From Canna indica (lineage: Eukaryota > Streptophyta > Magnoliopsida > Zingiberales > Cannaceae): a stretch of 64,000 bases of DNA. The first letter of the stretch is position 1. The number at the start of each line of letters is the position of its first letter. The notes under the pieces were generated by a model. The model was given only the letters and a program-made list of their open reading frames with translations, ran no database searches and had not been told where the DNA came from. The stretch lies in the NCBI GenBank assembly GCA_034359265.1, contig CP136890.1:68759501-68823500 (forward strand), written 5' to 3'. Made by a program: the position numbers and the translations under genes. Of this stretch, positions 6,510 to 44,732 are shown piece after piece.

Positions 6510-6510
6510 T

Positions 6511-11946: not shown

Positions 11947-12905
11947 CTACGAGCCCTGCAATACTTTTTTGACAAAGTAGATGAGCTTCTGATCTTTCCC
12001 ATGCTCTCGGACTAAAATCAAACTGAGTGCATTTTTTATTAATGTGAGATAGAGGAATAATGTCTCCCCTTGCAGAGGTTTGACTAGGATCGATGGACTT
12101 GTAAGGAAGTTCTTAAGCTCTTGGAATGCTAGTTCGTACTCCTCGTTCCATTGGAAATCATACTTCTTCTTGAGGATTTTGACGAAAGGGAGTGCTCGGT
12201 TCGCCGACCTGGATAAGAATCTTGATAGTGCAACCATCGTTCATGTGAGTTGTTGTACCTCTCTCATGTTTCGAGGACTGCATATCTCTTTTATAGCTCG
12301 ACATTTTACAAAATTGGCCTCTGTTCCTTGGTACGTAAGCATGAATCCAAGGAACTTGCCGCCGTGGACTCCGAAGATACACTTCTCTCAGTTGAGCCTC
12401 ATGTTGTACTGTTTGAGCTGCCTGAAAGTTTCAGCGAGATGTTTGCAATGGTTTCCACCGCCCGAGGTCTTTGCAACCATATCGTCGACATATACCTCGA
12501 GGTTTCTTCTGATCTATTGCTCGAAGGCCTTGTTCATGAGGCGTTGGTAAGTAGCTCCTACAATTTTTAGCCTGCGCGACACCACTTTGTAACATAAGTT
12601 GGTGTGTCATGTGATGAACGTCGTCTTCTCATCATCCTCGGGGTGCATCCCTATTTGATTGTACCCTGAATATACGTCCATAAAGCTTAGATATTGGTGC
12701 CCCGAGGAGCCATAGAATAGTTTGTCTATGCTCAGGAGAGGGTACGAATCTTTTGGACAAGCTTTGTTCAGATCTATGAAGTCCACGCACATTCGCCATT
12801 TCCCCGAGTTCTTCTCGACCATGACAATATTTGCGAGCCACGTCATAAATCTAATTTCTCTGATGAAACCTGCTTTCAACAGCTTCTTAGTCTCTTCAAT
12901 AGAGG
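11947..12905 (-). pseudogene. Gypsy (Tat/Retand) reverse transcriptase, outer copy
   Basis: Minus-strand frames carry RT blocks in order. First, 12,879-12,607 has EIRFMTWLANIVMVEKNSGKW, DFIDLNKACPKDSYPLLSID and SFMDVYSGYNQIGMHPEDDEK. Then comes the 'FF-MPFGL' to 'YVDD' stretch in shifted frames (12,570-12,300). Last is the connection region ALSRFLSRSANRALPF...FQELKNFLTSPSILVKP at 12,237-11,947. The spacing suits a Tat/Retand polyprotein, but frameshifts break it. Everything from about 12,605 rightward also exists in the inverted inner copy at 18,516-22,940. Confidence 0.82.
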
Positions 12906-13127
12906 CTTGTTAACATTCGACTCCAAGCTTCTTTTTCATGTGTACTACAGGCTTAACTCGATGGTCGATGGCAAGACTGTGACATATGATCATGGGATCT
13001 ACTTCGGGCATGTCAGTGGGAGTCAAATGCAAACAAGTTGGCATTTTCCTAGAGTATAGCACATAGATTAACCTTGAGCTCGACAAGGAGGCGAGCTCCG
13101 ATGAAGGTCACTTATTCAAGCGATGTT

Positions 13128-13394
13128 CTAATCGGTATAGGCTCCAAGCAATCCAGAAGCTGGGGTCTCTCTTTGATATCCCTTCTTGGATCCAACTCTC
13201 ATATTCTCGACAATTGTTGCATGTGAAAAACTAAATTTACCCACTGGGATGACTCCTACCTCTGTCTTTGAGATCGAATACTTAGCCATGTGAGGTGTTG
13301 AGACGATGACTCTTAAGGTATTCAGTGAAGGGCGCCCCAAGATTATGTGGTAGGGGCTAGGGCAGTCGATGACCAAGTACCGCACTTCAATCAT
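13128..13394 (-). pseudogene. Gypsy aspartic protease region, outer copy
   Basis: The frame reads VRYLVIDCPSPYHIILGRPS followed by LNTLRVIVSTPHMAKY, the retropepsin C-terminal flap and 'ILGR--L' motif of Tat/Retand elements. Compared with the inner copy (19,250-19,500), about 100 bp are missing between the 'KTEVGVIP' segment and the following linker. The catalytic D-T/S-G block lies further upstream and is degenerate. Confidence 0.7.
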
Positions 13395-13400
13395 TTTTGT

Positions 13401-14129
13401 CTTTAGCTGAGAGCCAAATGTCGTCCTTAGCCAAACATATCCTCAGACATTTACTCATTCTCCTAAGAACCTGACAAGGTCCCTGTTATAAGGGCAGAGA
13501 GAAGCTTCTATTAGTTGCATCTTTTTGAATGCGGAGTATAACAGGATGTCGGTCAAGCACCCCTAGTCGACCAGGACTTTCCTAACAATAAAGTTGCATG
13601 CAATTACATAAATCACCACAATATCATGTAGATTTTGATCGATCCCATGAAAATCAAATTCATAAAAGGATATTATCGGGGTTGCGATGCGAGGTCATTA
13701 CGGGCGAGCTATGCCGTCGATCGCCATAATAGCTCAGAGCAACATTTTCTTGGTCTAGCTCATCCCTCCTCCTCCTACAAATCCGCCGATTATGTGATAT
13801 ATGATGCCTAAAATCTCATTGTTCAGCTGGTTTGTCCTCTCGTTATCACGGTTACCACTGGTTTCCCTTGGGGGTGTCCTGCTCCGACTTTGGCGCTTCG
13901 AGTTACGATCATGTCGGTCTCGACTACAACTGCGGCTCCTCTTGTGGCTGACATAGCGGTCAAGGTGTCCTTGTCGTATTAGACGCCCAATCTAATCCTT
14001 GAGGACTATGAATTCATACTTTTTGCTTCTATCTACATTGGCTGGGACTTTTTGCATCCCAACGTTAGAAGGATAGTTTATCATAAGCAAGTTGCAGATC
14101 TTCCGAAGGATAATCTCCCTTCTCGTATT
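13401..14129 (-). pseudogene. Gypsy gag, 3' part, outer copy
   Basis: This stretch is collinear with 18,516-19,230 in inverted orientation and lies between the protease and the Copia insertion. In minus-strand sense it continues the gag frame that ends at 40,022. No long open frame remains. The target duplication GTATT of the Copia insertion occupies 14,125-14,129. Confidence 0.65.
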
Positions 14130-15376
14130 TGTTGGCCTAAGGTTTTGATGATAACAAATATGGAACTAATGATTTCATGGAGAATTATTTTTAATTCTAT
14201 ATCAGTTAGCGCACAATGTCCATGATCAGAAATATATCGGAGAGATCAGAAAATCGAAAGGACGTTGGTTCGACGCGCTCAGATTTGTCGGGAAGATAGA
14301 GTTTAAGCTTAGAGTGTCTAGAATATATATATATATATATATATATGCAATCCTCATTTATGATGCAAAGAATCCAAAAACCAAACTCGAAATCCGGAAA
14401 TGAAGAACGCGACAAGAAATCAGCAAAAAAACTAATTTCCCGAATTCAATCACAGGGGCGATCAACCGAACGGAGCCCAGAATCCACAGAGGGCTCCGGT
14501 TACTCGGGTGGTCGCTTGGTCGGTCGACCAGCCTACGACCGAACCGGCAACCAAAAGATATAATGGCTTGAAAAATAGTCGTTTATACCTGTTGTGTCCG
14601 ACCACCACTTGGTGTTCTGCCTATTTAAAGGCCTTCTAAGCATTCCTATGACCTCTCAATGCTTCATGAGACATCCTTTAACACCCACAAGCTTTGATTG
14701 AGGCATCTTTGTTGAAACCCTAGCTTTCTACCTTGTCTTTCTTGAGTTTGCCTTCAAGCTTCATTTGATTCATCATCAAGGCATCAGGAGGAGCTAGGCG
14801 ATCTTGTGTTGGAGCTAAATATTTGTGTTGTTGTATTTTTGCTCCATTACTCGTATATTTTCTTGTTTATTTCATTGTATTTGAGTTTGTAAAGACCTAG
14901 GTTGTTAGGTCTTGAAATTGGGTGGTAGCCTTAGTGTTTGAGGTTTAAATCCATCGATGTAAACCTAGTTCACAAGGATTAGTGAGTCTTGTCTCTTAGG
15001 GTTGAGGTGGAAGAGTGCTCTCGATAAGAAGGCGGAGACTTTCAGGTGTGGAAGTGCCTTAGGTTGAGAGCGGAGACTCTTCGGATAAAAAGTCCTCTTT
15101 GTAAGGGAAATGATATAATCTAGTAAAGCCAAGTTTGGAAATCCTAAGCGGGGTGCTTAGGTAGTGGAGTAGGCATTGGGGTCGAACCACTATAAATCAA
15201 AGTGTTAGCATTGTTTACTTTGTGTATTAAATTTCTTATTGTTTATCTTGCTTCCGCTTGCTACTCGATTTGTGAATTGCCTAAGTAAGTTTAAGAAATG
15301 TTTAAAATCGGAATTAGGCGAAAAGATTTAGCAAACACACTATTCACCCCCCTCTAGTGTAGCCATTTCACCAACA
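14130..15376 (+). repeat. Copia 5' LTR (outer), 1,247 bp
   Basis: Starts TGTTGGCCTAAGG, ends CATTTCACCAACA. It contains an AT microsatellite (14,323-14,346), a GGTCGACC-type block (14,515-14,545), a leader with 'ctatttaaagg' (about 14,623) as TATA-like box, and the conserved end 'cactattcacccccctctag'. The PBS follows at once, which marks it as the 5' LTR. Confidence 0.92.
14323..14346. repeat. (AT)12 microsatellite
   Basis: Uninterrupted AT dinucleotides in the LTR. The inverted counterpart at about 18,290 has only a short remnant, so it expanded or contracted after the duplication. Confidence 0.9.
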
Positions 15377-15396
15377 TTTGATATCAGAACGGGTCG
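15377..15396 (+). other. Copia primer binding site
   Basis: 'tttgatatcagaacgggtcg' starts directly after the LTR. The TGGTATCAGA core that pairs with the 3' end of initiator tRNA-Met is present with a G-to-A change (TGATATCAGA). The inverted 5' LTR has the unmodified TGGTATCAGA at 17,275-17,284. Confidence 0.8.
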
Positions 15397-15418
15397 TGGA
15401 TTGAGATTTCACCATATC

Positions 15419-15461
15419 GTCTACATCTAACCCCTAGCCATCTTAGGGGTTAGATGTAGAC
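15419..15461. repeat. Perfect 18-bp inverted repeat at the orientation switch
   Basis: GTCTACATCTAACCCCTA (15,419-15,436), a 7-nt loop, then its exact reverse complement (15,444-15,461). 'cgtctacatcta' is the normal Copia leader, as in the inverted copy at 17,234-17,245. The hairpin lies where plus-oriented Copia leader ends and minus-oriented material begins. Confidence 0.9.
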
Positions 15462-15464
15462 TTC

Positions 15465-16302
15465 TAAATCCAATTGAAATTCTTTCAAGGTGAATCAAAT
15501 TGGCATCCAATAGAAGTTCTTTCAAGGTGAAATGTAGTTACACTTCTGAATACTAGTAAAGCAAGTCGATGCTTAACTTACCACGCAATTGGTACAATGG
15601 TGGCCTCGGTCGCATCCTTGAAGGCCTTGGCGAATGGTATCTCCGGCAGCACCAGGAGAAGGCAGTCGGGGTCGGTGCCAAAGGCGATCATGCATATGTT
15701 GTCGAACGTGACGCGGAGGAGCACGTGCTGGAGATTGATCATCGTGTTGGCGAGCACCGGGAGGAGCTGCGCATGGACGAGCTCGAACAGGGACTTCACC
15801 ATCATGGACAAGAACTCAGCCGAGTGGAACTCGAGACTCGCGATCTTCTACTGCCAGTGCCAGGTCTCGTCGTCAACGCTGGAGATGCCGTCACCGGTGA
15901 CGACATGGTGCAAATTGGTGAACCACCCTGGCGGTGACGACGGTGATGAACGGTGTGCAGATCAGTGAACCACAGGCCGCGGAAGGTGAACATACCACCC
16001 TGTCGGTGGAGCACGCCGATGACCCACTCGTATTAGTAAGGCCAGATAATGACGTGGCTAGGGGTTAGTAAAAAAATATTTAAAAAATGATATGATGATA
16101 AGTTAGGGCTTGGGTATTAGAATAATATTTTTAAACACGTCGGCATGCCACATCACTGGATAAACGGAGTTGCTGACGGTAATTAGACGGTAGGATTCAA
16201 TTGAAACAAATTTGAAAGTACATGATACAATTGAGTCAAATAAAAGTACAGACCACAAATGCGAAAAACCTCAAAGTACATGATATATTTAGGTAATTTC
16301 CC
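15465..16302 (-). mobile_element. Mutator-like element, right arm (copy 1), with CYP86 fragment
   Basis: The right end ...GGTAATTTCCC stops at 16,302 and is followed by TATAATTTT (16,303-16,311). The left end GGGAAATTACC of the sister arm at 35,823 is preceded by TATAAGTTT. These are a 9-bp target duplication with one mismatch inside Copia gag, diagnostic of Mutator-like elements. The inner end (15,465-15,520) holds a direct repeat of 'ttctttcaaggtgaa'. It carries a P450 exon fragment but no transposase. Confidence 0.8.
15582..16014 (-). pseudogene. Captured CYP86-type P450 exon fragment, copy 1
   Basis: In minus-strand sense the frame 15,811-15,582 reads MMVKSLFELVHAQLLPVLAN, LQHVLLRVTFDNICMIAFGTD and LPEIPFAKAFKDATEATIVP. 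This closely follows the C-to-E helix region of plant CYP86 fatty-acid omega-hydroxylases, CYP86B-like in my judgement. At 15,571-15,582 the coding stretch ends with GTG|GTAAGTT, an intact splice donor, so genomic DNA was captured and not a cDNA. Upstream (15,820-16,014) the P450 sequence is frameshifted and internally deleted. The heme-binding Cys, I-helix and everything downstream are missing, so there is no enzyme. High GC sets it apart from the neighbouring DNA. Confidence 0.8.
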
Positions 16303-17218
16303 TATAATTTTTGAATTCTCAAATTTCAAATTTTCATTCTCAAGCTTTAAGTCCTTGAGCTCAAGTTTCAACCTATCATTGGAAGAATCAAAAGAACTAG
16401 ATTTCAATCTCTCATTTTCTAGTTTTAATTCATCCACATGAGAATTAAGCCTTATATTATCTTTTTTCAATCTTTTATTTTCATTATCTTTTTCTTGTAT
16501 TCATCTACTAACTCATTATATGATATGTCAAGAAAACTAGTAGAGTTAGCATTATCATTATCATTAGCATCACTAGAAAGAGAAGAGTGTACCACATCAT
16601 TAGCATCCATGAGGCAAACTTTTGAAGTGGCTTCATAGTCATGATCGAAAAGAGGATGCTTCACTTGAGTAGGATGATATAGAAGCATTTGACCACTTCT
16701 TTGCCTTGTTTTTCATGGTAGGGCAATTCTTCTTCACATGCCCTTTTTCTTTACACAAGTGGCAAATTACCTTTCTCTTCCAGCTTTTAGAGTTGCTTCT
16801 TTGACTAGAAGCACTATGAGCATCAAAACCACGATTAGTAGTAGGTGAGCGACCATTGTCATCACCATCTTCATCAAAGGTGTCAATCTCTTTAGTTTTG
16901 GCATAATCATACAAAATATTTAAACAAGCTCACAAATAAAAAGTCGTGGAGCAATGCATTATGCATGACTTTTTCAACGATGTTATTTGGTAAGGCACAA
17001 AATATGCAATTCATGGCATCTTCGTTAAATTTAAACCTTTCCTTGTCAAGTTCACTATAATCATGCATGTCAACCTTAGGTTCAATGTATTCTAATTTCA
17101 ACATGTTATCAACACCAAAACCTCTAGTCTTTAAGAAGGTATACATCCTAGACTTCCAAAGACCAAAGTTCGATTCATCAAACCTAGGGGGTGTAGATAC
17201 TACCGACTCTAGTGCCAT
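16303..17218 (-). pseudogene. SIRE-like Copia gag, 5' part, inner copy
   Basis: The start ATG at 17,218 is shortly downstream of the PBS. Frame one (17,218-16,907) has RFDESNFGLWKSRMYTFLKT, the UBN2/gag N-terminal fold of Copia elements, then breaks after KVMHNAL; the middle of the domain is deleted. Frame two (16,914-16,639) has a basic linker and the zinc knuckle CHLCKEKGHVKKNC (CX2CX4HX4C). Frame three (16,688-16,303) is a coiled-coil-like stretch rich in KLEN/LKLE repeats. The frame is cut at 16,302 by the Mutator-like insertion; its continuation lies at 35,813 down to 35,319. Gag forms the particle that packages the element RNA. This copy is broken by shifts and a deletion. Confidence 0.85.
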
Positions 17219-17268
17219 TTTTCGGATTGAGGCTAGATGTAGACGAGATGGTGAAATCTCAATCCATG

Positions 17269-17286
17269 ACCCATTCTGATACCAAA
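17269..17286 (-). other. Copia primer binding site, inner copy
   Basis: The reverse complement reads TTTGGTATCAGAATGGGT directly beside the LTR end. It matches the 3' end of initiator tRNA-Met (TGGTATCAGA) and is characteristic of Copia elements. Confidence 0.85.
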
Positions 17287-18515: not shown

Positions 18516-19793
18516 AATACGAGAAGGGAGATTATCGTTCGGGAGATCTGCAACTTGCTTCTAATAAACTATCCTTCTAACGTCGGGATGCAAAAAGTCC
18601 CAGCCAATGTAGACAGAACCAGAATGTGTGGATGCATAGTCCTAAAGGATTAGATTGGGCGTCTGATATGACAAGGACACCTTGACCTCTATGTCAACCA
18701 TAAGAGGAGCCGTAGTTGTAGTCGGGACCGACATGATCGTAACTCCAAGCTGCAAAGTCAGATCAGGACACCCCCAAGGGAAACCAGTGGTCACCGTGAC
18801 AACGGGAGGACATACCAGCCGAATAATGAGATTTTAGGCATCATATATCACATAACCGGTGGATTCGTAGGAGGAGGAGGGATGAGCTAGACCAGGAAAA
18901 TGTTGCTCTAAGCTATTATGGCGATCGACGGCATAGCTCGCCCCCAAAGACCTCGCATCGCAACCCTGGTAATATCCTTTTACAAATCCGATTTCCAAGG
19001 GATCGATCAAAATCTACATGATCTTGTGGTGATTTATGTAATTGCATGCAACTTTATTATTAGGAAAGTCCTGGTCGACTAGGGGTGCTCGACCGACATC
19101 CTGTTCTACTCCGCATTCAAAAAGATGCAACTAATAGAAGCTTCTCTCTGCCCTTATAACAGGGACCTTGTCAGGTTCTTTGGAGAATGAGTAAATGTCT
19201 GAGGATTTGTTTGGCTAAGGACGACATTTGGCTCTCAGCCAAAGACAAAAATGATTGAAGTCGGTACTTGGTCATCGACTGCCCCAGCCCCTACCACATG
19301 ATCTTGGGGCACCCTTCACTAAATACCTTAGGAGTCATCGTCTCAACACCTCACATGGCTAAGTTTCTGGTCTCAAAGACAGAGGTAGAAGTCATCCACG
19401 CCGACTAGAAAGAGGCTTGCCTATGCTATAATGAATGCCTAAAGAAGAAATCGACTAAACCAAAGGAAGCACTAAGCGCTTCATCCCAGTGGGTAAATTT
19501 AGTTTTTCACAAGTAACAACTATCGAGAATATGAGAGTTGGATCCAAGAAGGGATATCCAAGAGAGACCCCAGCTTGTGGATTGCTTGGAGCCTATACCG
19601 ATTAGAACATCGCTTGAATAAGTGACCTTCATCGGAGCTTGCCTCCTTGCCGAGCTCAAGGTTAATCTAAGTGATATACTCCAGGAAAATGCCAACTTAT
19701 TTGCATGGACTCCCGCTAACATGCCCGAAGTAGATCCCATGATCATATGTCACAGGCTTGCCATCAACCCTTGAGTTAAGCCTGTAGCACACA
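18516..19793 (+). pseudogene. Gypsy gag 3' part and protease, inner copy
   Basis: Inverted counterpart of 12,950-14,129. The gag part has many stops. The protease region at about 19,255-19,410 reads RYLVIDCPSPYHMILGHPSL then STPHMAKF. After it comes a linker (KEACLCYNECLKKK) that the outer copy has lost, then the pre-RT segment LKVNLSDILQENANLFAWTP with PANMPEVDP, typical of Tat/Retand polyproteins. It is interrupted at 19,793 by a Tekay solo LTR. Confidence 0.78.
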
Positions 19794-22595
19794 TGTCACG
19801 CTCCAACTCAGGGTCACGTGACCGGCCAGGTATACGTGCCTATACCCCGTAGCCTAAACCATGCACATGCCAACTCAACAAATAATACAGCATGAAGAAA
19901 TAACAAGTTTTATTTTAATGAAAAGCGAACCAAAACAAAGTTTAATTCAAGTAGCTCAAATGAAACCAAAAGTGTGAAATAGTGTTTTAAGATCAGCAGT
20001 TCAAAAGTTCAAATACAATAAAACTTGAAATAAATGACATAAATGCCCATAGGGCTACAACTCCAAATCAAGCTAATACAAGTGCATGACTACTACCAAA
20101 TGACTCGACTACGACCCTAACTAGGACTGCTATGAGATCATGCGGCTCCTCTACCCACTAGCGGCGCCAAGTGCATCCGACCCATCTCACCAGTCAGGCT
20201 CTGCAAAATAGAAATCAAATGACAACGGGTGAGTTCAAAGAACTCAGCGAGTGGTTTTACCAACCCTCACAAATAAAAATCACAGAGATAATAAGAATGA
20301 AATCTATCTCTACAGAAGGCAAGGTCACGAAGGTGTGACTAGCTAACAGGCCAACAGGCCACACATGCCCCAAGGAATCTAACCCTCCAAAGAAGTGCAT
20401 CTAGCTGAAGCCCACCATGCCCGAAGACAACAGCACATACTAAAGAAGTGCATCAGACCGAAGCCCACCATGCCCGAAGGCAACAGCACATACTAGAGAA
20501 GTTCATCGGGCCGAAGCCCACCATGCCCGAAGGCAACAACACATACTAGGATAATTGGGAAATGCCCTCTGAATTTATCCTGGTATAAGGAACCTCAGGA
20601 GCAATCGAGAAAGGTCCTCCGAACTTGCTCCACGAGATGTGATATCACAAGAGTAATCGGGAAGGCCCTCCGAACTTACTCTTTTAAGACATCACAGGAA
20701 TAATAGAGAAAGTCCCTCCAAACTTATTTCTCTAAAAATCACCTCGGGGATAATCGGGAAAGGCCCTCCGAACTTATCCCATGAGGCCAAGATCAGAACA
20801 ATCGGGAAAGGCCCTCTGAACTTGTTCTGTAGGTTGGGAATTTGACGTCCAACCACCCGGGCGTAGCCCGAAATCTGGCTCCTAATCGAGCCGCTCCACC
20901 ATTCTCAAGGATATGGCACATCAAGACCTAAGTCAAGATTATCATACGGTGTCCTAGGGGTGTCCTCATTATGAAGTGTCTCAACACTCCAAACCCAACC
21001 CCTATCCCTTAGACCCGTAATGTCATGAACTCATATGGTTTTATTTTATGCATACGTTATAAGTTGGTTCATAACAGATTATGCTCATCCCTTAACCCAA
21101 TTTTAATTATATAATTAAAATTTTGATCATCTCAATTAGGGTTTTGTTTTAGGTTATTGTTCTGCCCAGAACTGCTGTGTCTAATCCGAATCTAGTCCCC
21201 AAAGTGTGTCCTCTGTTTCCAAACAATATTTTCTGGTCGAAACAATAGGTTACACGACTATATTCACACATATACACATTTCACAACAATAAATTAAAAT
21301 CAGCACAGATTCATCATCTCAGCATACAATTCCAGCAACATGCAATTTCAGCATACTTATAGAATTAAATCCGAAAATTAATAAAAATTAACCCCTAAAT
21401 TACCATTATAACAGAGTACTAATCTCATGAATTAATTCACAGAAATCATACTTTTCATCAAGATTAACAAGAACCCACACACTTAAATCAAGAATCAAAC
21501 ATTAAGATCAAGAACCCCTAATTAGTCATTACCAAGATCTTAATTCTACCATATGATTTCTACCCAAAAATCACAGATTTAATTCTAAACAAGAAACTCA
21601 TACTCAAGAATCTCAAATTAGGATAATAGATCAAGATTTCATATCAAAGGAAATAAGAACTCATTCGGGCTTTTCATCGAACACCTCGAGGGCGACCCGG
21701 GTTTCCCCCTTGGCCGAGCACCCCTAGGGTTACCCTAGGGCTGCCGAGCCCCATGGAGGGGAGATTAGAGTCTCCTCAAGCACAATCTCAAGGAAACATG
21801 GCAAGAACGCGAAGAACAATCAAGAAACGAAACACAAATACCAAGCCATCAAGAACAGCTCAAGAATCCGATTGAAATCCCGAAGAGAGAGGGTAAACCA
21901 CTCACCTTAATTGGAAGAAGAACTAAAGAAGAAATCTCGGATGACGGCCCTCAAATCCGGCTTCAAAAGGCCGGTGGCTCAACCCAAGAAAAGGCTCCAA
22001 GGGGCGGAGGCTCACTCCAAGCCGCCGGCTTGGAGAGAGGGAGAGAGAGAAGAAGGAGAGGGGCTGGCTCGGCTGGCTCCTCTCTGCTCGGCTCCAAAGG
22101 GAAGGAAGAGAGAGAGTGGAGGAAGGGAAGTAGGCGGCTTGATGGCTTGGCTCACAGGCGGCGGCTGGCTCCCTTTCTCAACCTTTGGGTGGCTCCAAAA
22201 TAGGAGCCACAAGCCATGAGGAGGGGGGGTTTTATACTCCCTCCTCAATCCTAACCCCTTAAACCCTTAATCCACAATCCGAATCCACCTTAAGACAAAA
22301 CCAAAACCCGCTAATCCGATAGACTTAAACAATTTAATTAAACTCATTCTAATAAATCACAAGTACTTAATTAAATACACCCACATGAACATAATTAACA
22401 ATTATGCACACACAACATCAAATCTAAATAATTTCAACTACCCAAGCCTAAAATTCATAAATTCATATCCTACTTACCCGAGCTCGCAAGCTCGCTCCGG
22501 ACCATGAGTCGACTCGACTCGACCAGAACTAGTCTGCTAAGCTGGCAAACATACATAAGAGGAAAAAAATAAATTTAAATATCTAGGATATTACA
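19794..22595 (-). mobile_element. Tekay solo LTR, 2,802 bp, TSD ACACA
   Basis: Plus-strand ends are TGTCACGCTCC and ATATTACA. ACACA is duplicated at 19,789-19,793 and 22,596-22,600. The sequence mirrors the Tekay 3' LTR at 7,515-10,884 without the hAT insert. The outer copy of this site (about 12,935, 'gtactacag') lacks it, so it inserted after the duplication. A solo LTR forms by recombination between two LTRs of a full element. Confidence 0.92.
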
Positions 22596-22600
22596 ACACA

Positions 22601-22940
22601 AGAAAAAGAAGCTTGGAGTCGAACGTTAACAAGCCTCTATTGAAGAGACTAAGAAGCTGTTGAAAGCAAGTTTCATCAAAGAAATTAGATTTACGACGTG
22701 GCTCGCAAATATTGTCATGGTCGAGAAGAACTCGGGGAAATGATGAATGTGTGTGGAGTTCATAGATCTGAACAAAGCTTGTCCGAAAGATTCGTACCCT
22801 CTCCCGAGCATAGACAAACTACTCTATGGCTCCTCGGGGCACCAATATCTAAGCTTTATGGATGCATATTCAGGGTACAATCAAATACGGATGCACACCG
22901 AGGATGATGAGAAGACGATGTTCATCACAGGACACATTAG
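22601..22940 (+). pseudogene. Gypsy reverse transcriptase N-terminal part, inner copy
   Basis: It carries the RT opening blocks EFIDLNKACPKDSYPLPSID and LSFMDAYSGYNQIRMHTEDD followed by EKTMFIT, and then stops being Gypsy sequence at about 22,940. The equivalent outer sequence (12,605-12,905) goes on into the catalytic region. Frames are shifted near 22,745. Confidence 0.85.
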
Positions 22941-22945
22941 AGGGG
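22935..22945. other. Rearrangement junction: Gypsy RT joined to Copia LTR end
   Basis: To the left, sequence follows Gypsy RT (outer equivalent about 12,605). To the right it follows the end of the Copia LTR that is intact at 43,237-44,494 (equivalent point about 44,475). The LTR here lacks its last 20 or so bases and its CATTG target duplication on this side. The join shows a short shared 'ACAC(A)T' stretch, as in microhomology end joining or template switching. Confidence 0.8.
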
Positions 22946-25023: not shown

Positions 25024-25028
25024 CATTG

Positions 25029-25238: not shown

Positions 25239-25240
25239 TT

Positions 25241-33280: not shown

Positions 33281-33294
33281 ATCTTCCCTTTTTT
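33281..33294 (-). other. Polypurine tract of the inner Copia
   Basis: Inverted it reads AAAAAAAGGGAAGAT next to the LTR start TGTTGG. The outer copy has the better preserved AAAAAGGGGGAGA at 38,747-38,759. Confidence 0.75.
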
Positions 33295-34484: not shown

Positions 34485-34600
34485 CCAACTGTGAGTAGCA
34501 CAGTTGGTGACAACATGTTGTATGTTGCCTAGAGATTTAGGGTTCGATCCCTAGTATATATGGTCACCTATTGTGACTTTCTATCTTTGTTAAAAAAAAA
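34485..34600 (+). mobile_element. tRNA-derived SINE, 116 bp, 16-bp TSD
   Basis: The head has box-A-like 'gagtagcacagttggtga' and box-B 'gggttcgatcccta', then a short body and a tail TTGTTAAAAAAAAA. Target duplications GATTCATTTCAAAATA (34,469-34,484) and GATTTATTTCAAAATA (34,601-34,616) differ at one base. Such a layout (pol III boxes, A-tail, long duplication) is that of a SINE moved by LINE machinery. The second unit of the local tandem duplication (about 34,885) shows the empty site. Confidence 0.8.
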
Positions 34601-35318
34601 GATTTATTTCAAAATAAGTAATCATGAATCTGAAACGAATCAAGAGATCTCAAAATATGAAATATTTGAAAATTAAGATCTCCAACCAAAAACATACCTC
34701 ATCCATGAGAATTTAGCCAAACTTCATCTCATTTCTATTTTCCTTAGAATAACCTTCCATTCAATTTTTGATGACTTGCAACTAATCTTCATTAGTATCA
34801 AAATGACAATATGAATACTAGCAAGTTATCATACTAAGTAGCAAAGAGAGAGAATCAATTATCGATATCAAAGTCTACTTTGCTAAATAGTTAAAGATCC
34901 ATTTCAAAATAAATAATCATGAATCCGGAATGAATCGAGAGATCTCAAAATATGAAATATTTGAAAATTAGGATCTTCATCCCTTCCTATTGATTGAAAA
35001 CCGAAAGGCCACAATGAGCCTACGATTTAGAACCGCAAGGTCGCATGAGCCTTTATAGGCTACAAAGGTCTTCGAAGAGACCAAAAATCAAAAAATCAAA
35101 AAATATTTTTGAAACTCATATCAAGAGCGAAAAATCTACTAATATTAAGCATATATCAAAACTCCAACTCTAATTTAAACAAGTAGGTATAGGAGATGAT
35201 ACCAAAGTGTTTGATGTCAATAATTTCATTACCTAAGGCATCATGATGACTTGAAGTTGCAATTTTGAAATGATACAATCTTTGAAACCCCAAGCAACTC
35301 CAATCAACCAACTTTATC

Positions 35319-35798
35319 TCACCCTTGTGTGGTAGCTCCCCCTATAATAGAGCATGAAATTTTTGGTATCCAAATGACTTTGGGTCCTTGGAGGTTAGTA
35401 GGCCTAGGAATCCAAAGTGACCTAGCCACAATTGGATTTCTTTTAAATGCACAATTATATATGGCATGACCAAAAATACCACAACAAAAATAATGTTCAT
35501 TGAATTTCTTTTCATTTTTGCTATGGACATTAGATCTATCGTTATAATGCTTGACATGTGAAACATGATGTGTATAAGGATTCCTAGAAACATAATTCTT
35601 CTTCTTATGATCCTGAGGTCTAATGGTAGAATGCATAGCATGGGAATGATGATGAACATTGACATTCTTTACATAAGCATTTCTTGTATTCTTAAGAAAT
35701 GAAATATTTTTTAATTCGTTTACTTTCTTATTCAAAGACACAACCTCATTTTTCAAGAAATGAAGAGATTGATACAAGGTATTAGATAGAGATTTCAA
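35319..35798 (-). pseudogene. Copia gag 3' part and gag-pol linker, inner copy
   Basis: A 159-codon minus-strand frame. It begins with the coiled-coil continuation (LKSLSNTLYQSLHFLKNEVV-like, heptads of L and N/K), then a His-rich linker and a second zinc-knuckle-like motif HYFCCGIFGHAIYNC, in which the first Cys is His. It then shows KVIWIPK, matching the 'W-PK' linker ahead of protease in SIRE-type elements. The frame ends in IGGATTQG and stop, where pol should start. Its upstream half is at 16,303-17,218, so gag was split by the Mutator-like element and then separated by the rearrangement. Confidence 0.75.
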
Positions 35799-36164
35799 AT
35801 TATTGTTTTCACCTATAAGTTTGGGAAATTACCTAAATATATTATGTACTTTAGAAATATATTATGTACTTTAGGATTTTTCGCATTTGTGACATGTACT
35901 TTTATTTGTCTCAATTGTATCATATACTTTCAAATTTGATTCAATTGAATCCTATCGTCTAATTACCGTCAGCAACTCCGTTAAACCAGTGACGTCGTGT
36001 GCTGACGTATTTAAAAAATATTATTTTAATACTCAAGCCTCAACTTATCATCCTATCATTTTTAATAGTTTTTATATGTTTTTTATTAACCCCTAGCCAC
36101 GTCATCATCTGGCCTTAGTAATACGAGTCGGTCACCGGCGTGCTCCACCGTTAGGGTGGTACGT

Positions 36165-36594
36165 TTACCTTCCGTAGTCCGTGGTTCACCGATCTGCACT
36201 ACGTCGTCACTGTCGTCACTGTCGTCACCGCTAGGGTGGTTCACCAATCTACACTACGTCGTCACCGTCGTCACCGGCGACGGCATCTCCAGCGCTGACG
36301 ACGAGACCTGGCGCCGACAGCGGAAGACTGCAAGCCTAGAGTTCCTGCCCAAGACTGTGAAGTCCCTATTCGAGCTCGTCCACGCGCGGCTCCTCCCGGT
36401 GCTCGTCGATGCCCATATGTGCCGTATGGCGATCAATCTCCAGCACGTGCTCCTCCGCCTCGCGTTCGACAACGTGTGCATGATGACATGATCGCCTTCG
36501 GCACCGACCCCGGTTGCCTCCGCCAGGGGCTGCCGAAGATGCCATTGGCTAAGGCCTTCGAGGACATGACCGAGGCCACCATACCATTCGCGTG
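36165..36594 (+). pseudogene. Captured CYP86-type P450 exon fragment, copy 2
   Basis: The frame 36,264-36,491 reads GDGISSADDETWRRQRKTAS then LEF, containing the C-helix W-R-x-Q-R motif that contacts the heme propionates in P450s. It continues as KTVKSLFELVHARLLPVL and LQHVLLRLAFDNVCM, then a 4-base ATGA duplication shifts the frame into IAFGTDPGCLRQGLPKMPLA and KAFEDMTEAT. It ends GTG|GTAAGTT, a kept splice donor (GT at 36,595). CYP86 enzymes are ER omega-hydroxylases of fatty acids for cutin and suberin. This fragment lacks the catalytic core. It is the best preserved of the three copies at its 5' side. Confidence 0.82.
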
Positions 36595-36683
36595 GTAAGT
36601 TAAGAATCGACTTACTTTACAAGTATTCAGAAGTGTAAATACATTTCACCTTGTAAGAACTTCAATTGGATGCCAATTTGTCG

Positions 36684-37170
36684 AGAGACTTTGTTGACCT
36701 TTTCTTATGTTTCAAATGCTTCAATCGTCGTCTTCTTCTTCTTCTTCCTCATGGAAGCAGAGGTGCTTCCCCTCCGGCGTCGGCAGACCTTCAACACCAG
36801 CACTCTCGGCGAAACAGCCTTCTTATCGTTCACTTCCTCTTCTCATTCCATTTCGTCCTCGCTGTTGTAGATGAACCTCTGGTGTGTTTCCCATGAACTC
36901 GGGTAATTTTGGCCTCTCTTCATCGTCCCCCATTGACATCTTCCTCTGACCGTCGCACAACTCACCGAGCAAGTCCTCAACGTCATCTTCTTCTTCAGAT
37001 ATACTGATTCAAAATTTATCTACTTTATCCTGTTTTGTGGATATGTTTTTCCTGTCAACAGCAGCCTCATTGTTTTCTTATTACCTGTGTTTATTCACAA
37101 TGAAGTTGATAAATAACTAATTAGACCAACAAAGAAGTATATCAAAGTAAATTGATTAGCAAAATTTTAC
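36684..37170. other. Spacer of the foldback element
   Basis: Between the two arms. The first half is C/T-rich (runs of TCTTCTTC) with a moderate GC content and gives open frames from 36,666 without recognisable motifs; it may be another captured piece. The second half (from 37,000) is AT-rich. The edges are 'caattggatgccaatttgtcgag' and its inverse. Confidence 0.55.
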
Positions 37171-37260
37171 TCGACAAATTGGCATCCAATTGAAGTTCTT
37201 TCAAGGTGAAATGTATTTACACTTCTGTAAACTTGTAAAGCAAGCCGATGCTTAACTTAC

Positions 37261-37690
37261 CACGCGAATGGTACGATGGTGGCCTCAGTCGCATCCTTGA
37301 AGGCCTTGGCAAATGGTATCTCCGGCAGCACCAGGCGGAGGCAGTCGGGGTCGGTGCCGAAGGTGATCATGCACACATTGTCGAACGTGATGCGCAGGAG
37401 CACGTGCTGGAGATTGAACGCCGTGTCGGCGAGCACCGGGAGGAGCCGCGCGTGGATGAGCTCGAACAGGGACTTCACCATCATGGACAAGAACTCGGCC
37501 GAGTGGAACTCGAGGCTCGCGGTCTTTTGCTGTTGGTGCCAGGTCTTGTCGTCGGTGCTGGAGATGTCGTCGCCGGTGACTACGGTGACGACGTAGTGCA
37601 AATTGGTGAACCACCCTGACGGTGACGACGGTGATGAAAGGTGTGCAAATCAGTGAATCACAGGTCGCGGAAGGTGAACATACCACCCTG
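37261..37690 (-). pseudogene. Captured CYP86-type P450 exon fragment, copy 3
   Basis: Minus-strand frame 37,601-37,261 reads SSTDDKTWHQQQKTASLEFH, MMVKSLFELIHARLLPVLAD, LQHVLLRITFDNVCMITFGT and LPEIPFAKAFKDATEATIVP. The C-helix motif is changed (W-R-x-Q-R to W-H-x-Q-Q). The donor GTAAGTT follows at 37,260. It is closer to copy 1 than to copy 2 in shared changes such as MMVKSLF and FKDATEAT. The long plus-strand frames across it are antisense shadows. Confidence 0.82.
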
Positions 37691-37765
37691 CCGGTGGAGC
37701 ACGTCAGTGACCCACTCGTATTAGTGAGGCCAAATAATGACGTGGTTAGGGGTTAATAAAAAAAC

Positions 37766-38760
37766 ATAATGACTTGGATTGAGATTAGTGTTTAGATTTA
37801 CTCATGGTGTACATGTGTTTAAATTTGAAAAACCATGAGTAAAGATTAAAACTTGATACTTAGTAATTTCATGATAACATGCTCGTTTTTGAATAAAATT
37901 ATGCTAAGGTAAAATTTTGATCAAATGATATTATTTTCATTTCAAACTTGATAAACATGCTTTAAATGATTATATCTTGATATCTGAAAAGTTTGAACGA
38001 TAACTAAAAACTTTTGAAAAAATAGCTAATATTTATGAAAATACCACTAGATTTCAGTAATTTTTAGAAAAATACAAAAAATTAATTTTTGGATGATTCT
38101 TAAAACTGCATGTTCGGCTAATAAATCTAGTTTATCGTATAAAATTTTCAAAAAAAATAGCAAGAATATGAATTGATATGGATTTTTGAAGTTGGATTTC
38201 GAAACTTTAAAGTATCGCTCTTCCCAAATGTTCAATTTTCGGATACTTTGATTTTTGGTCCAATTTTCAAATGAGATGTCAAGTATGATATCATAATTCT
38301 ATTGTTGGTATCATTCTCATTATTATTTGAGAAAAATCATGTATAAAATGATTTTTGATATTTTGATCAATACGTGAAAATATCTTTACTTAAGCTTATA
38401 CATGATTTCCAGATTTGGATGTTAGCTATCATTCCTTGCTATCATGTATGATTTAGTCTCATATTAGATATTGGTTTTCATCTCTTTGGTTGAGATTTTC
38501 ATGTTCCATGAAAAATAATTTTTAGAGTCTCAACTTTGACTATAAGTTGACTTTTCTCGTCCTTTTTTATTGATGGCAAAAGGGGGAGAAAAATATAGGT
38601 AAATGGAAAGAAAATATAGGAAAATCATGCATATAGATAGGGGGTATTTATTTTTATAGATATGCATATTGATAGGGGAGAAATCTCATGATAGATATCC
38701 TTTTATTCTTAAATGATATATTTTCTTAAGGATGTTTGTCATCATCAAAAAGGGGGAGAT
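37766..38760 (+). other. Copia 3' non-coding interior and polypurine tract, outer copy
   Basis: The inverse of 33,281-34,330, AT-rich and without coding motifs. It ends with the polypurine tract AAAAAGGGGGAGA (38,747-38,759) just before the LTR. Confidence 0.75.
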
Positions 38761-40016
38761 TGTTGGCCTAAGGTTTTCAACATTGGTCTTAATCTCAGTT
38801 TTGATGATACAAATATTGAACTAATGATTTCATGGAGAATTATTTTCAGATTTCATATTGGTTAGCGCACGATGTCCACGATTGAAAATATATCGGAGAA
38901 ATCAAAAAATCGGAAGGACGTTGTTCGACGCACTCGGATTCATTGGGAAGATAGAATTTAGGTTTAGGGTGTCTAGAATGTATATGTAATTCTCTTTTAT
39001 GATACAAAGAATCCAAAAACCAAACCCAAAATCTAGAAACAAAGAACACGATAAGAAATCAGCAAAAAAGTTGATTTCCTAGATTCAGTTGTAGGAGCGG
39101 TCGACCGAACGGAGCCCAAAATCCACAGAGGGCTCCGGTCATTAGGGCGGTCGCTTAGTCGGTCGACCGGCCTTGAACCAGACCAGCGACCGGGCAGTAT
39201 AACGGCTCAAAAAATAGTCGTTTATACCTGTTGTGCCCGACTACTACTTGGTGTTCTCCCTATTTAAAGGTCTTCTAAGCCTTCCTATGACCTCTCAATG
39301 CTTCATGAGACATTCTTTGACACTCATAAGCTTTAATTGAGTCATCTTTGTTGAAACCCTGGCTTTCTACCTTGTCTTTCTAGAGTTTGCATTCAAGCTT
39401 CATTTGATCCATCATCAAGACATCAAGAGGAGCTAGGTGATCTTGTGTTGGAGCTAAGTATTTGTATTGTTGTATTTTTACTTCATTACTTGTATATTTT
39501 CTTTTTTATTTTATTGTATTTTATTTTGTAAAGACCTAGGTTGTTAGGTCTTGAAATTGGGTGGTAGCCTTGGTGTTTGAGGTTTAAATCCACCGGTGTA
39601 AACATAGTTTACTAGGATTAGTGATTGTTGTCCCTTAGGGTTGAGGTAGAAGAGTGTTCTCGATAAGAAGGCAGAGACTTCCGGGTGTGGAAGTACCTTA
39701 GGTTGAGAGCGAAGACTCTTCGGGTAAAAAGCCCTCTTTGTAAGGGAAACAATATAATCTAGTAAAGCTAAGTTTGAAAATCCTAAGCGGGGTGCTTAGA
39801 TAGTGGAGAAGGCATTGGGGCCGAACCACTATAAATCAAAGTGTTAGCATTGTTTACTTTGCGTATTAAATTTCTTATTGTTTATCTTGCTTTCACTTGC
39901 TACTCGATTTGTGAATTGCCTAAGTAAGTTTAAGAAATGTTTAAAATCAAAATTAGATGAAAAGATTTAGTTAACACACTATTCAGCCCGCCTCTAGTGT
40001 GGTCATTTCACCAACA
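38761..40016 (+). repeat. Copia 3' LTR (outer), 1,256 bp
   Basis: Starts TGTTGGCCTAAGG and ends TTTCACCAACA, followed by GTATT (40,017-40,021), the same duplication as left of 14,130. Confidence 0.92.
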
Positions 40017-40892
40017 GTATTAAGCAGAGTGTAGTCATGGTATTTAGAATGAGGTCGGGGAGGCGATATCTTTCTCCTACTGTCGTCCTTTCCTCGACGG
40101 TCTCATCCCTCTCTTTTTTTATCGGACTGCTTTCCTTGTTTGTCCTTGACTTTTGTGGTCTTTTGCCTTTCGACCTTCGTTGCTTCTCTGAGCTCATCCA
40201 TGTCCATATATCCCACTGCTCCCTCTTAGAATTCTGCCATAGTCTTTAGCTTCGTGACAACTATCAGGTATGCAAATTGTCCTCGCTTCAGACCGTGTTT
40301 GACCGAGTATAATTTGACATGAGGGTCGAGGTTCGATATCTCCATGACCACCGTATTAAACCTCGTTAGATATTCTATCAACGATTTTGTTTTCCCTGTA
40401 TGATGTAGTTCAGGGTATCCTCGGACTTGGCATAGATCTTGGTTGAGGAGAATTAGTTGATGAAGGCCTTGGAGAGCTCCTAAAAACTATGGATGGATCC
40501 CGTGGGGAGAGTCGAGAACCATAAGAGGGCGGCCTTTTCCAGGAATCAGGAAAAAGCTATGCAGAGGAAGGGATTGGTAGTGCCATTGAGGAGCATCATT
40601 GATATGGATATTGTTACGTAGAGGGTAGGATCACCCATCCCATCATAGGGATAGGGAGTGGTCAGCAGTTTGAAGTTATTTGGGAGACACATCGCCATAA
40701 TATGCTCGGCGAACGATTCCTGAGCCGATAAGAGGGCGATGAGTGGCCTCTGTGTTCTTTATTTTCTCCCTTTGATGCTGCGTGTGGGAAATATCATCTT
40801 CTTCATGGTAGGTATTGCCTCAACACTTTGACCGGTGATGCTCGTGCTCAGTTTGATGTTGTTCTTTGGATTGGGAGATATGAACTTGGGCT

Positions 40893-42356
40893 TGTTGTAG
40901 GAAATTCGACACTAGAAGGGGGGGTTTGAATAGTGTCTATCCCCTTATTCTTATATTTTTCTTTCTTTCTCAATTTTAACTTCACTTAGGTGCAAGTGTT
41001 TTTTAACAATAGATGTGATCAAATATTAATAACAATGATGGGCAATTAAGAAAGCAATGCAGACAAGATTAATTATAGTGGTTCGGCCAATTGCATACTC
41101 CACTACCTTGGCTCCTCACCAAGGATTTCTAACCACTACTTTATAGAGTTTGTGTTTCCCTTTGAATACAATGAGGATACTCTTTCTCACTACTCTGAGA
41201 ACCCCTCAATCCTATTCACCTAGGCAAAACACAATCCTATAAAGTTTTCCCTAAGTGTTTTCCTAGCACACCTAGCAGCTATTACAAATCGAAAACAAGT
41301 TTGAAATAAACTTCAAATACAGTGGAAAGAGCTTAAGAATTTAAAGATGACCCAAGCCTTTGCAAGAAGATGACTCTTTGAGTTGCAACAGAGTTGAGGG
41401 AAGCAGGGAAGCGGATGCTCGAAGAATGTTGTCAACGGAGGCAAAGGGCGCGCAACAAATCAATTCTTATAAAGGCTTAAATCACTTCTTTTATGCTCAA
41501 TAAAATTTCTAAGAAGCTTTAAAGAAGTTAGGTGTGGGGTATTTATAACCCCTCACCCGAACAGAACATTCAACGGGCGAAAAAATAGCTGTTGATGCCG
41601 TTCGATCGCTTTGCGGGTCGATCGTCGGTTGACCGACCGATTGATCCACCGCCAATGCGACCGCTGGCTTATGTGAGTGCTTGATCGACCGACGGGTAGA
41701 TCGACTGTCGCAAATCCATCGATCCCACATTCGGTGGACCAGCCGGTCGACCGAATCAGTGGAGCCAGGGTCGCGCAACTTGTGATCTCTAATCCGATCG
41801 ACTGATTGGTCGACCGATCGATCGACCGATGAGCATTCTGCCAATTTTTAGCTTCGGTTGACTGACGCAGCCCTCTGCGATTTCTTCACCAACTTCGATC
41901 GACCGACAGGTCGACCGAATGACTACTGCCACTTCTTCGCATCATTCGGTCGACTGACTGGTCGACCGAACTGGCTGTTGCCAAGGATACTGCCTTGTTC
42001 GGTCGATCGATCGGTCGACTGAACTCAGGTTGAGGGTGATTTCTACTTGAATTTTTTTACATGCCTTTTTTATGGATTTAGTTACCAAGTTCTAATTTGG
42101 ATAACTTTACAATTAGGCTTGGGATAAGGTCGTCCTAGGGGTATATTACAAGATATCTATTTGATTTATGCCCGAGCCTTTCGTTGATATTTTCTTCTAC
42201 AGTTTCTTTGACTGTCTTTTCTTTAGATTCGTTTGAGCGAATTTGGCATGCTTATTGCAACCTCAACCTGAACTCAAAACTTCACATATGGATTAAATAC
42301 TTATTTGTTATCATCATAATAAAGATCGAGGCTTAAGAGAGACCCTTAAGCCAATA
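40893..42356 (-). mobile_element. Copia solo LTR private to the outer copy, TSD GGGCT
   Basis: Plus-strand ends TGTTGTAGGAAATTCGAC and TTAAGCCAATA. GGGCT is duplicated at 40,888-40,892 and 42,357-42,361, and the inner copy (about 25,880) shows the empty site. The GGTCGACC block (41,590-42,030) is expanded into many units. A 5' 'tattggctt' start shows the same TG-to-TA change as the LTR at 28,135. Confidence 0.88.
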
Positions 42357-42370
42357 GGGCTAGTAGCCTC

Positions 42371-42791
42371 TAGGGGCGATAGAAATGGGCACGACATAAG
42401 CATGGCACGATAACTGTGGGTCGGGCCAAAAAATTCAGCCTGATAAGCTTATCGGGCTGGCCCAACCCAGCATGATAACATTGCAGGCCGACGCGGGCCG
42501 GCTTTTATCGGGGCGGGCCAGCCCGTGGCCCGCTAAGTATTTAAAAAAATTAATTTTAAGTCTAGTTTAGTGTTTGTTTAGTGCTCTAAAATTGAATGTG
42601 AAGTTATTCTATGAAACTTTTAATGTGAAATATATTTCATATTTGATGCTTATTTAGTCTTTCAAATATTTTAAATTATTTTTTTACAAGTTTTTAGCAA
42701 ACTTTTAGTTGATAAATGGGATCGCGGGCCGTGCCGGGCCGAAAATTTCTGGCCCATGGAGTTAGCGGGCCGGTCCATTTTGCCACCTCTT
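42371..42791. mobile_element. hAT-type MITE, outer copy, TSD GTAGCCTC
   Basis: Ends TAGGGGCGATAGAAATGGG and CCATTTTGCCACCTCTT are imperfect inverted repeats. GTAGCCTC is duplicated exactly at 42,363-42,370 and 42,792-42,799 (8 bp, as for hAT). 'gggccgg' blocks recur inside. No transposase. Confidence 0.85.
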
Positions 42792-43002
42792 GTAGCCTCT
42801 AGTTTTGCTCCATGAGATCACTAATCATGTGTCGTAACTCTTCCATGGCTGGGTTTGTGGCGACCGGAACGTCATTTCTGGCTGCGATTTGTGTCGCGCA
42901 GTAGTGGGGGGACGATGTTGCTAGGCTATTGTCCAATGCTAGTGGCAGTGTTCAGTCGACTCCGGGGTATCAACAATGGTGGGGAAGGTAAGATTTACTC
43001 GG

Positions 43003-43019
43003 CCCCACGGTGGGCGCCG
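43003..43019 (-). other. Gypsy primer binding site, outer copy
   Basis: Inverse of the 25,241 site with the last base changed. It marks the minus-strand 5' LTR to its right. Confidence 0.75.
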
Positions 43020-43021
43020 AA

Positions 43022-44732
43022 TGTTCTCACCCGAGATCATAAACGTTGCAAGTCTTCCTGGCTCGTGGCTGGATGCGGCTCTGGAGCGACTACAAAGACA
43101 CTTGGATGCTCAAGTGAGGATTTGTTCGAGGTGTGTTTGTAAAGAATCAGATTCGAGAGGATACTTGTAGATGCAATATCTGGTTTGTAAGGTAGGTCTT
43201 TGGTGACATGTATTCGATGTGGATTTCTCCTCAATGTGTTGGCCTAAGGTTTTCAACCTTGTTGACCATCCTGATTTTGATGATAACGTACAAACTTATT
43301 CTAATGTGTTTATCAAGTGTTTGATCTCAGGTTGGGTGATTGATACGCGTGCGAAGTTCGTCAGAAAATCATAAAAAAATCACGAAAATTCAAGTGTCGG
43401 CGGCTTCGGAGGTGATCGAGTCGGAAGTTAGGTCTAGGCTTAGAATTTATTGTAAAATACTTCTTAGGGCTCAAATCATCTATCTCCATGTATTTATGCA
43501 AAGCCAAAACCCGAACTCGAACCCGAAGTGAAAAAATAGCACAAATAAGAAAACAAGTTATGGTCACAATATCGGTCAAATCTCGACCAATCCTCGATCG
43601 ATCGACGGTCGCCCGAGGATCGGCCAGAAGTGTTCTGGAAAATTTTCAGAACCTATTCAACTGACCCACGATCGAGGGTTGCCCATGATCGCCCGAGGGT
43701 CGCTTGACGATCGATTGAATTGCGCAACGGATCTAAATAGATCCGTTGAATGGCTAGTTTTGCCCTCCTCTTGATATGGCCTCTATAAAAGGTCCTGAAA
43801 CCAGCCTCCTGAGGGTTCTAACACTTCATTAAGTCCATCCTTGAAAGATTGACCTTATTTCCTTGAGTTCTAAACCCTATTTCTTAATCTTACCCTACTT
43901 TAGCCTTCTACTCATCTTCAAGCCTCCTTGGATTCAAAGTGTCATCATCTTGAGGCCTCGAAGGATTAGGAGGAAGCAAGAAAGAGCTCCTATTGTGTTT
44001 GTATTTATTTTGAGCTCTTTATTATTGTCTTTCACTTGTATTTTGTTCTCATTTGTTATAATTGCTTTTGTGAAGAGTTGGTGGTTGACTTAGTGAAAAG
44101 GCATAAGTCCACCCTTGTAATCTAGGATTAGAGTGTCTTTAGGAGAGAGTGGGGTGGGAACCTCTTGGTAGGAAGACAAAGATTTTCGGGTGTGAAAGTA
44201 CCTTCGAGTGTGAGAACAGAGACTTTCTGGAAAAAGTCCTCATTGTAAGGAACTTCAATATAGTGGATTATAAGTGAAATTCTAAGCGGGGTACTTAGAT
44301 AGTGGAGTAGGCGGAATTGTTGAACCACTATAAATTTACTTGTGTTAGCTTTGCTCATTTGCGTAGATTTTTTATTACTTTCAATATTGTCATCTAACTT
44401 AGTTAATCATAAAGAAGATATTGAATTGCAAGTAGACGTAGAATTAGAGCATACACACTATTCACCCCTCTCTAGTGTGGATGTTTCATTCACACAATGA
44501 TCGCAGGGATATGCCTTAAATGAGTCAATTGCCGAATTCCGTCCCTTACTTGTGCTATGATCATATTTGAATATTTGGGTATAGGAAAAAGACAAAAATA
44601 CCCTTGGAATGATTGGGCGGGGTCCCCAAGCTTGACTTGAGCCGACACAACATAATTTGGATCTCTGAGTGGCTAGGCTGAGCTGCACTTCGTAGGCTCA
44701 CCAGATGCGCTCGAGAAATTAGTTTGGTCCAA
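43022..44732 (-). repeat. Gypsy 5' LTR, truncated and split by a solo LTR
   Basis: Pieces 43,022-43,236 and 44,495-44,732 match 3,076-3,530 in the same order. The match stops at 'tttggtcca' (44,731), after which low-copy sequence begins, so the sense start of this LTR is deleted. Confidence 0.78.
43237..44494 (+). mobile_element. Copia solo LTR in the Gypsy 5' LTR, TSD CAATG
   Basis: Starts TGTTGGCCTAAGG, ends TTTCATTCACA. CAATG is duplicated at 43,232-43,236 and 44,495-44,499. 1,258 bp. The inner copy at 22,941-25,023 shares the insertion, so it predates the duplication. Confidence 0.9.

Follow-up and report, generated by a model that had tools for sequence, protein, structure and literature searches.

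A nested Gypsy and Copia locus of Canna indica present twice, with the second copy reversed and permuted inside the first

In Canna indica, a Gypsy retrotransposon interrupted by a Copia retrotransposon stands twice at one locus, the second copy lying in reverse inside the Copia of the first, which raises the question of how a nest of mobile elements can come to contain itself. We analysed the 64,000 nucleotides that hold it (contig CP136890.1, here C1, positions 68,759,501-68,823,500, letters A, C, G and T only; hereafter the window) by BLAST of the window against itself, by Pfam profile matches on selected reading frames, judged by the Pfam cut-offs, and by searches of the genome (753 Mb, nine contigs). 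In the genome searches the best 40 of 737 to 9,936 candidates were scored, so that the genome-wide counts given below apply to best candidates. The results show that a single nest was duplicated; it was probably copied beside itself, after which part of it was flipped by faulty repair of breaks.

The inner copy spans 15,496-37,767 and lies, reversed, between the long terminal repeats (LTRs) of the outer Copia. Self-BLAST pairs 12,603-15,432 with 22,936-17,231, and 37,806-44,479 with 34,210-22,933, in inverted orientation and at 86-95% identity, with private insertions interrupting the pairs. A previous reading of this DNA from its letters alone (the sequence-only reading) had proposed that one ancestral nest was copied and that the inner copy lies reversed inside the outer Copia, and had named a self-alignment as the check; the inverted blocks are present, and together with the three common sites and the LTR pairing described below they bear the proposal out. 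The second pair had been taken as homologous up to 35,300, but homology stops at 34,210, and 34,211-35,825 is retained in the inner copy only.

Three insertion sites are common to both copies, namely that of the Copia in the Gypsy gag, that of a solo LTR in the Gypsy LTR, and that of a miniature inverted-repeat transposable element (MITE). As had been read from the letters, the target duplications of the Copia are GTATT at 14,125-14,129 and 40,017-40,021 in the outer copy, and AATAC at 18,517-18,521 and AATAT at 26,744-26,748 (one mismatch) in the inner copy, while those of the solo LTR are CAATG at 43,232-43,236 and 44,495-44,499, and CATTG at 25,024-25,028 next to the solo LTR of the inner copy. 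There a single target-site copy is left, because a joint described below, J2, removed the other end of this solo LTR. The MITE, also reported for both copies, occupies the matching site in each (25,473-25,866 inner, 42,364-42,788 outer). The parts of the outer copy, where RT is reverse transcriptase, are as follows.

12,602-14,124, minus strand: outer Gypsy RT to gag part 2; the duplicated segment begins with GTGTG at 12,602-12,606; RVT_1 match, E 4e-7, above the Pfam cut-off
14,125-14,129: left target duplication of the Copia, GTATT
14,130-15,376, plus strand: outer Copia 5' LTR
15,377-15,428, plus strand: outer Copia internal sequence, 52 bp past the LTR, then the break at joint J1
37,789-38,760, plus strand: outer Copia 3' internal region
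38,761-40,016, plus strand: outer Copia 3' LTR
40,017-43,236, minus strand: outer Gypsy gag part 1 and LTR end, holding GTATT at 40,017-40,021, a private solo LTR and the shared MITE
43,237-44,494, plus strand: outer solo LTR (Copia-type) within the Gypsy 5' LTR, target duplication CAATG; the duplicated segment closes at GTGTG, 44,475-44,479
44,495-44,731, minus strand: remainder of the outer Gypsy 5' LTR, missing from the inner copy by self-BLAST

The corresponding parts of the inner copy are these.

16,305-17,286, minus strand: gag of the inner Copia, including a zinc knuckle; its Retrotran_gag_3 and zf-CCHC matches fall below the Pfam cut-offs; 39 other genome places scored
17,287-18,516, minus strand: inner Copia 5' LTR
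18,517-22,933, plus strand: inner Gypsy gag part 2 to RT, with a private solo LTR inside; RVT_1 match, E 3.7e-5, below the Pfam cut-off
22,939-25,023, minus strand: inner solo LTR (Copia-type), ~15 bp short at its end and interrupted by a private hAT-like element
25,024-26,748, plus strand: inner Gypsy LTR end, primer-binding site region and gag part 1, with the MITE; Retrotrans_gag match, E 0.0065, below the Pfam cut-off
26,749-33,281, minus strand: inner Copia 3' LTR, in two pieces on either side of a private CACTA-like insertion
33,282-35,825, minus strand: inner Copia internal region (gag end and 3' part)

The two copies differ at 613 of 7,884 positions (7.8%) over 13 aligned blocks, far closer than chance, with per-block values from 5% (gag part 1) to 13% (the MITE). 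The outer Gypsy RT part is 93-95% identical to the inner copy and at most 79% identical to the 37 other best-match places scored, and the Gypsy-Copia joint is spanned by the outer and inner copies and by none of 38 other places. Among the four Copia LTRs, 31 sites (28 in the long and 3 in the short piece of the inner 3' LTR) pair the outer 5' with the inner 5' LTR and the outer 3' with the inner 3' LTR; the alternative pairings are supported by 9 sites (7 + 2) and 4 sites (4 + 0). Rooted on the LTR of a neighbouring Copia, a tree of the long piece gives the same pairing (supports 0.95 and 0.82). This pairing by position means that a single nest was duplicated, with the Copia already in it. Independent insertions at hot-spot sites fit poorly with the LTR pairing and, among the places scored, with the RT identities and the Gypsy-Copia joint.

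The Kimura two-parameter distance between 5' and 3' LTR is 0.125 for the outer Copia, and 0.125 (long piece) and 0.089 (short piece) for the inner one, while that between copies is 0.085 for the 5' LTRs, and 0.111 (long piece) and 0.092 (short piece) for the 3' LTRs. Because the 5'-3' distance exceeds the between-copy distance, the short piece aside, the Copia is older than the duplication. With a substitution rate of 1.3e-8 per site and year, the duplication would be about 3 million years old.

The outer Gypsy lies on the minus strand, with its 5' LTR on the right at 43,020-44,731. Its gag reads leftward from about 43,000 to 40,017, where the Copia interrupts it, and resumes at 14,129 into RT. 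An RT-linked RNase H frame (E 9.5e-8) follows to the left of the RT, and because RT and then RNase H read on leftward, the outer Gypsy extends past 12,602; a Gypsy start at 12,605, as previously read, is therefore not correct. RT is continuous through 12,602 in 36 of 37 other best-match places (one stops short, and four more short pieces were left uncounted), therefore the outer sequence represents the ancestral state there. One outer gag frame has no Pfam match, and the other gag, zinc-knuckle and inner RT matches are below the Pfam cut-offs. At the left end of the window stands a further LTR, probably the 3' LTR of the outer Gypsy.

3,073-3,523, minus strand: Gypsy LTR that lacks the solo LTR (empty site near 3,290), matching 43,020-43,235 and 44,496-44,731

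Besides being inverted, the inner copy is circularly permuted. Read on the minus strand, with its blocks named by their order in the outer copy, it runs from a transposon arm (A'), a spacer and a second arm (B), described below, through the Copia 3' part, Copia 3' LTR, Gypsy gag part 1 and Gypsy LTR end to the solo LTR, and from there directly to the Gypsy RT, gag part 2, Copia 5' LTR, Copia gag and arm A. The solo LTR and the RT meet at J2.

22,934-22,938: joint J2, Gypsy RT (12,602-12,606) fused to the solo LTR (44,475-44,479) at the 5-bp microhomology GTGTG

In the inner copy J2 reads ATGTG, one base off the outer GTGTG. It is a single novel joint that links the end of the duplicated segment to its start, as expected for a microhomology-mediated tandem duplication, and none of 39 other places scored, the outer solo LTR included, spans it.

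The ends of the reversed stretch lie in an element that resembles Mutator-like elements (MULEs) and whose inverted arms of ~800-860 bp flank a spacer.

15,496-16,304, minus strand: MULE-like arm A, joined to the inner Copia gag; terminus GGGAAATTACC, present in L064 too
35,826-36,685, plus strand: MULE-like arm B
36,686-37,165: MULE-like spacer
37,166-37,767, minus strand: second arm A (A'), ~225 bp missing

Among 39 other places, 11 related Copia loci were inspected, and in eight of them the site is empty, the stretch to 16,303 abutting that from 35,822 with a 9-bp overlap; the MULE-like element therefore made a 9-bp target duplication, and it has terminal inverted repeats, both of which are features of MULEs. 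Of the remaining three, L072 soon passes into other sequence and L074 is too diverged. The third, L064 (C6:52,893,603), carries a terminus of the same MULE-like family in its Copia gag, 14 bp further than the window site at 16,304, an offset that hints at a preferred target.

Over the stretch shared by the three arms, 46 sites and five indels longer than one base separate arm B from the arms at J1 and at the third joint, J3, whereas the J1 arm is distinct at 26 sites and by two indels (9 bp and 3 bp), and the arm to the right of J3 at 25 sites. Because this typing groups the J1 arm with the J3 right arm, the reversed stretch is bounded by arm A on either side. What is left of the J3 right arm is of the A type; recombination between the inverted arms would produce a hybrid arm with exchanged flanks at each joint, and the diagnostic parts are missing. 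As an observation apart, the arms (35,826-37,767; 15,496-16,304), which align with each other, seem to carry a fragment of a cytochrome P450 gene. The two frames of the element that were scanned gave one p450 match and one weak DUF4231 match, both below the Pfam cut-offs; the p450 match (E 7e-4) is in a frame of arm A', and the frame examined in arm B has none. Pack-MULEs carry such gene fragments.

J1 (15,428|15,496) and J3 (37,767|37,789) both lie inside the Copia and the MULE-like element, and both contain filler DNA.

15,429-15,495: J1 filler, 67 bp
37,768-37,788: J3 filler, 21 bp, of which 12 bp match 15,397-15,408 beside J1

After 15,428 the outer Copia departs from the family sequence seen in the inner copy and in L064, L069 and L071, the loci that show the stretch. 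The J1 filler starts with 14 bp common to the MULE arm at 16,055-16,068, overlapping the edge, goes on with an 18-bp reversed copy of its own edge (a length of 18 was reached at 3 of 3,000 random places), and finishes with an imperfect second copy of the inner end of the arm. At J3, all 37 other Copia places scored start between 37,788 and 37,793. The 12-bp match of the J3 filler was spotted post hoc and is a weak indication. A snap-back origin for filler at J3, suggested by a 12-bp inverted match, was dropped, as the stretch is native in those 37 Copia places. J1 and J3 are two reciprocal joints with filler, as found in an inversion repaired by end joining. The permutation at 22,934-22,938, the MULE-like element at J1 and J3 and the unbroken Gypsy at 12,602 had no place in the earlier account of the nest, of which the duplication and inversion stand.

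How, then, did the locus arise? The starting state would be a Gypsy with the solo LTR, the MITE and the Copia, the Copia holding the long-armed MULE-like element, which we infer was in place before the duplication from the fact that arm A occurs twice. A head-to-tail duplication, with the ends joined at the 5-bp GTGTG microhomology, would then have brought RT to the solo LTR and made J2. An inversion whose ends lay in the Copia/MULE of copy 1 and in that of copy 2 would have followed, with ~1.1-1.2 kb lost at one end, the MULE spacer, arm B and the following Copia lost at the other, and filler added, giving J1 and J3. The long inverted arms of the MULE may have invited the breaks, and end joining of the polymerase theta (Pol theta) type would have made the joints. 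That the duplication preceded the inversion is likewise inferred.

The block order of the locus follows from tandem duplication and inversion with losses. We searched single tandem duplications, inversions with up to four blocks lost per end, circles and reversed copies with up to six blocks lost, and some two-step combinations. With the arms typed, exactly one solution of duplication followed by inversion was found, and six for two reversed copies; no solution was found in one step, by inversion then duplication, or by a circle then a deletion. Duplication then inversion is favoured because the search gives exactly one such solution, and arm A lies at J1 and to the right of J3, as this model requires. 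The sequence-only reading knew of no standard transposition route to such a structure, and indeed no ordinary transposition reaction fits; a microhomology-mediated tandem duplication followed by an inversion with filler does.

Several observations weigh against this scheme. Losses at both ends of the inversion have to be assumed, and the intermediate allele, a direct tandem, is only postulated. The 3' parts of the inner and outer Copia break 17 bp apart (34,210 and 37,789) although they belong to different joints, a closeness that the scheme does not account for; at 34,210 five related Copia loci (L065, L066, L067, L071 and L074) continue with a few hundred bp absent from the inner copy. Divergence is uneven across the 13 blocks (chi2 44, 12 degrees of freedom, p 1.4e-5), and uneven mutation or gene conversion is needed beside a single date. 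In the short piece of the inner 3' LTR, the inner 5'-3' distance (0.089) is not above that between copies (0.092), and its quartet sites divide only 3 to 2 to 0. The arm typing sets 46 sites against 26 and 25, plus indels, in three arms without an outgroup MULE. Finally, the two-step route and a one-step route fit the locus alike.

That one-step route, a single replicative event with three template switches, as in microhomology-mediated break-induced replication or fork stalling and template switching (MMBIR/FoSTeS), is a serious though less probable explanation. Replication would leave the Copia at 15,428, run back through arm A, gag, LTR and RT, jump at GTGTG to the solo LTR, continue to arm A, and jump to 37,789. 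All three joints would be made at once with no separate deletions, the J2 microhomology, the filler at J1 and J3 and the 12 bp of J3 filler that match beside J1 are in keeping with it, and two inverted copied segments reach the target in six ways in the block search. It asks, however, for three long-range switches in one event, whereas the two steps are kinds of event each known singly. Still more tentatively, the whole locus might be one replicative catastrophe within a nested repeat, its three switches guided by the inverted MULE-like arms, and so an event resembling chromoanasynthesis that was fixed in nature in the germ line of a plant; if true, such an event would be datable by the retrotransposons that it copied.

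A circle excised from the nest, with J2 as the circle joint, and re-inserted in reverse into its parent Copia is improbable. Permutation is what a circle is expected to give, and with arm types ignored a circle and one deletion yield the block order in two ways, but with the arms typed there is no solution in one step or with one deletion, and arm A at both ends of the insert and a landing inside its own parent would be coincidences. A one-LTR retrotransposon circle was rejected, as J2 lies in RT and ~15 bp inside the end of the solo LTR, whereas the joint of such a circle consists of one whole LTR flanked by internal ends.

Alternative (reversed-ends) transposition by the MULE-like element is very unlikely. 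Two of the joints are within that element, and in maize this reaction is known to make segmental duplications (PMC4270019) and inversions (PMC8225341). The local duplications beside transposons described for Ac/Ds with re-replication (PMC4270019) resemble the present case, but Ac/Ds acts through the transposon termini. None of the three joints here coincides with a MULE terminus; J1 falls on the inner edge of one arm, J3 lies ~225 bp within another, and J2 is distant from all of them. An assembly error from haplotypes or a fold-back read can be set aside as the least credible explanation, since, although the locus is known from the assembly alone and misassembly at inverted repeats is well documented, artefacts of this kind leave arms that are almost the same, whereas these copies are 7.8% apart and carry private insertions with their own target duplications.

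Those private insertions are listed here; the labels hAT, CACTA, MULE and Copia-type used throughout are presumptive and are based partly on end motifs.

19,794-22,595: solo LTR in the inner copy, target duplication ACACA
23,607-24,431: hAT-like element in the inner copy, target duplication ACCCTTAG
27,052-32,320: CACTA-like insertion in the inner copy, so labelled from its end motif
40,893-42,356: solo LTR in the outer copy, target duplication GGGCT

The hAT-like element (~830 bp) has ~40 further matches at 96-98% identity over most of its length (the best 40 of 9,936), on all nine contigs; it spread recently. Elsewhere in the window, a direct repeat of ~800 bp at 87% identity (5,715-6,509 and 7,513-8,270) possibly represents the LTRs of a short element in the outer Gypsy region, and 52,843-53,361 (~520 bp) matches its own reverse complement at 78%. 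The 10-kb flanks on each side have no match to the Gypsy gag and RT blocks at E 1e-15; they match Copia-type LTR, solo-LTR and Copia internal stretches, and repeats near 60-61 kb, at 66-85%.

For the duplication step preferred here, maize CEN10 is a close precedent. There, a 22.7 kb tandem duplication of nested retrotransposons, ~121,000 years old, has its ends in a polyprotein coding region and an LTR, joined where they match over 5 nt, is ascribed to alternative end joining and, as here, was followed by insertions private to one copy (PMC4806543); section 23 of that paper, unlike what we see here, describes no inversion within the duplicated pair. Templated insertions, usually of <25 bp, mark Pol theta, in plants as elsewhere (PMC12426944); the filler at our joints resembles them in being copied from the flanks in several pieces, whereas the J1 filler, at 67 bp, is longer and is old and mutated. 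In a small search of open papers, no title or abstract opening described a reversed and permuted nest.

Local duplications with an inverted piece and microhomology joints are familiar as duplication-inversion (DUP-INV) and chromoanasynthesis-type rearrangements, known mainly from disease and from irradiated or mutant material; the present case, in contrast, is an old repeat locus. It is explicable by known DNA repair, and is neither a new way of jumping nor a new kind of system. Because the insertion sites are common to both copies, the order of events is largely readable without an outgroup genome: the Gypsy, then the solo LTR, MITE and Copia, then, presumably, the MULE, followed by the duplication, the inversion and the private insertions. 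Besides insertion, the repair of breaks can thus enlarge repeat nests, and treating the outer and inner Copia as simple nested insertions would both misdate and miscount them.

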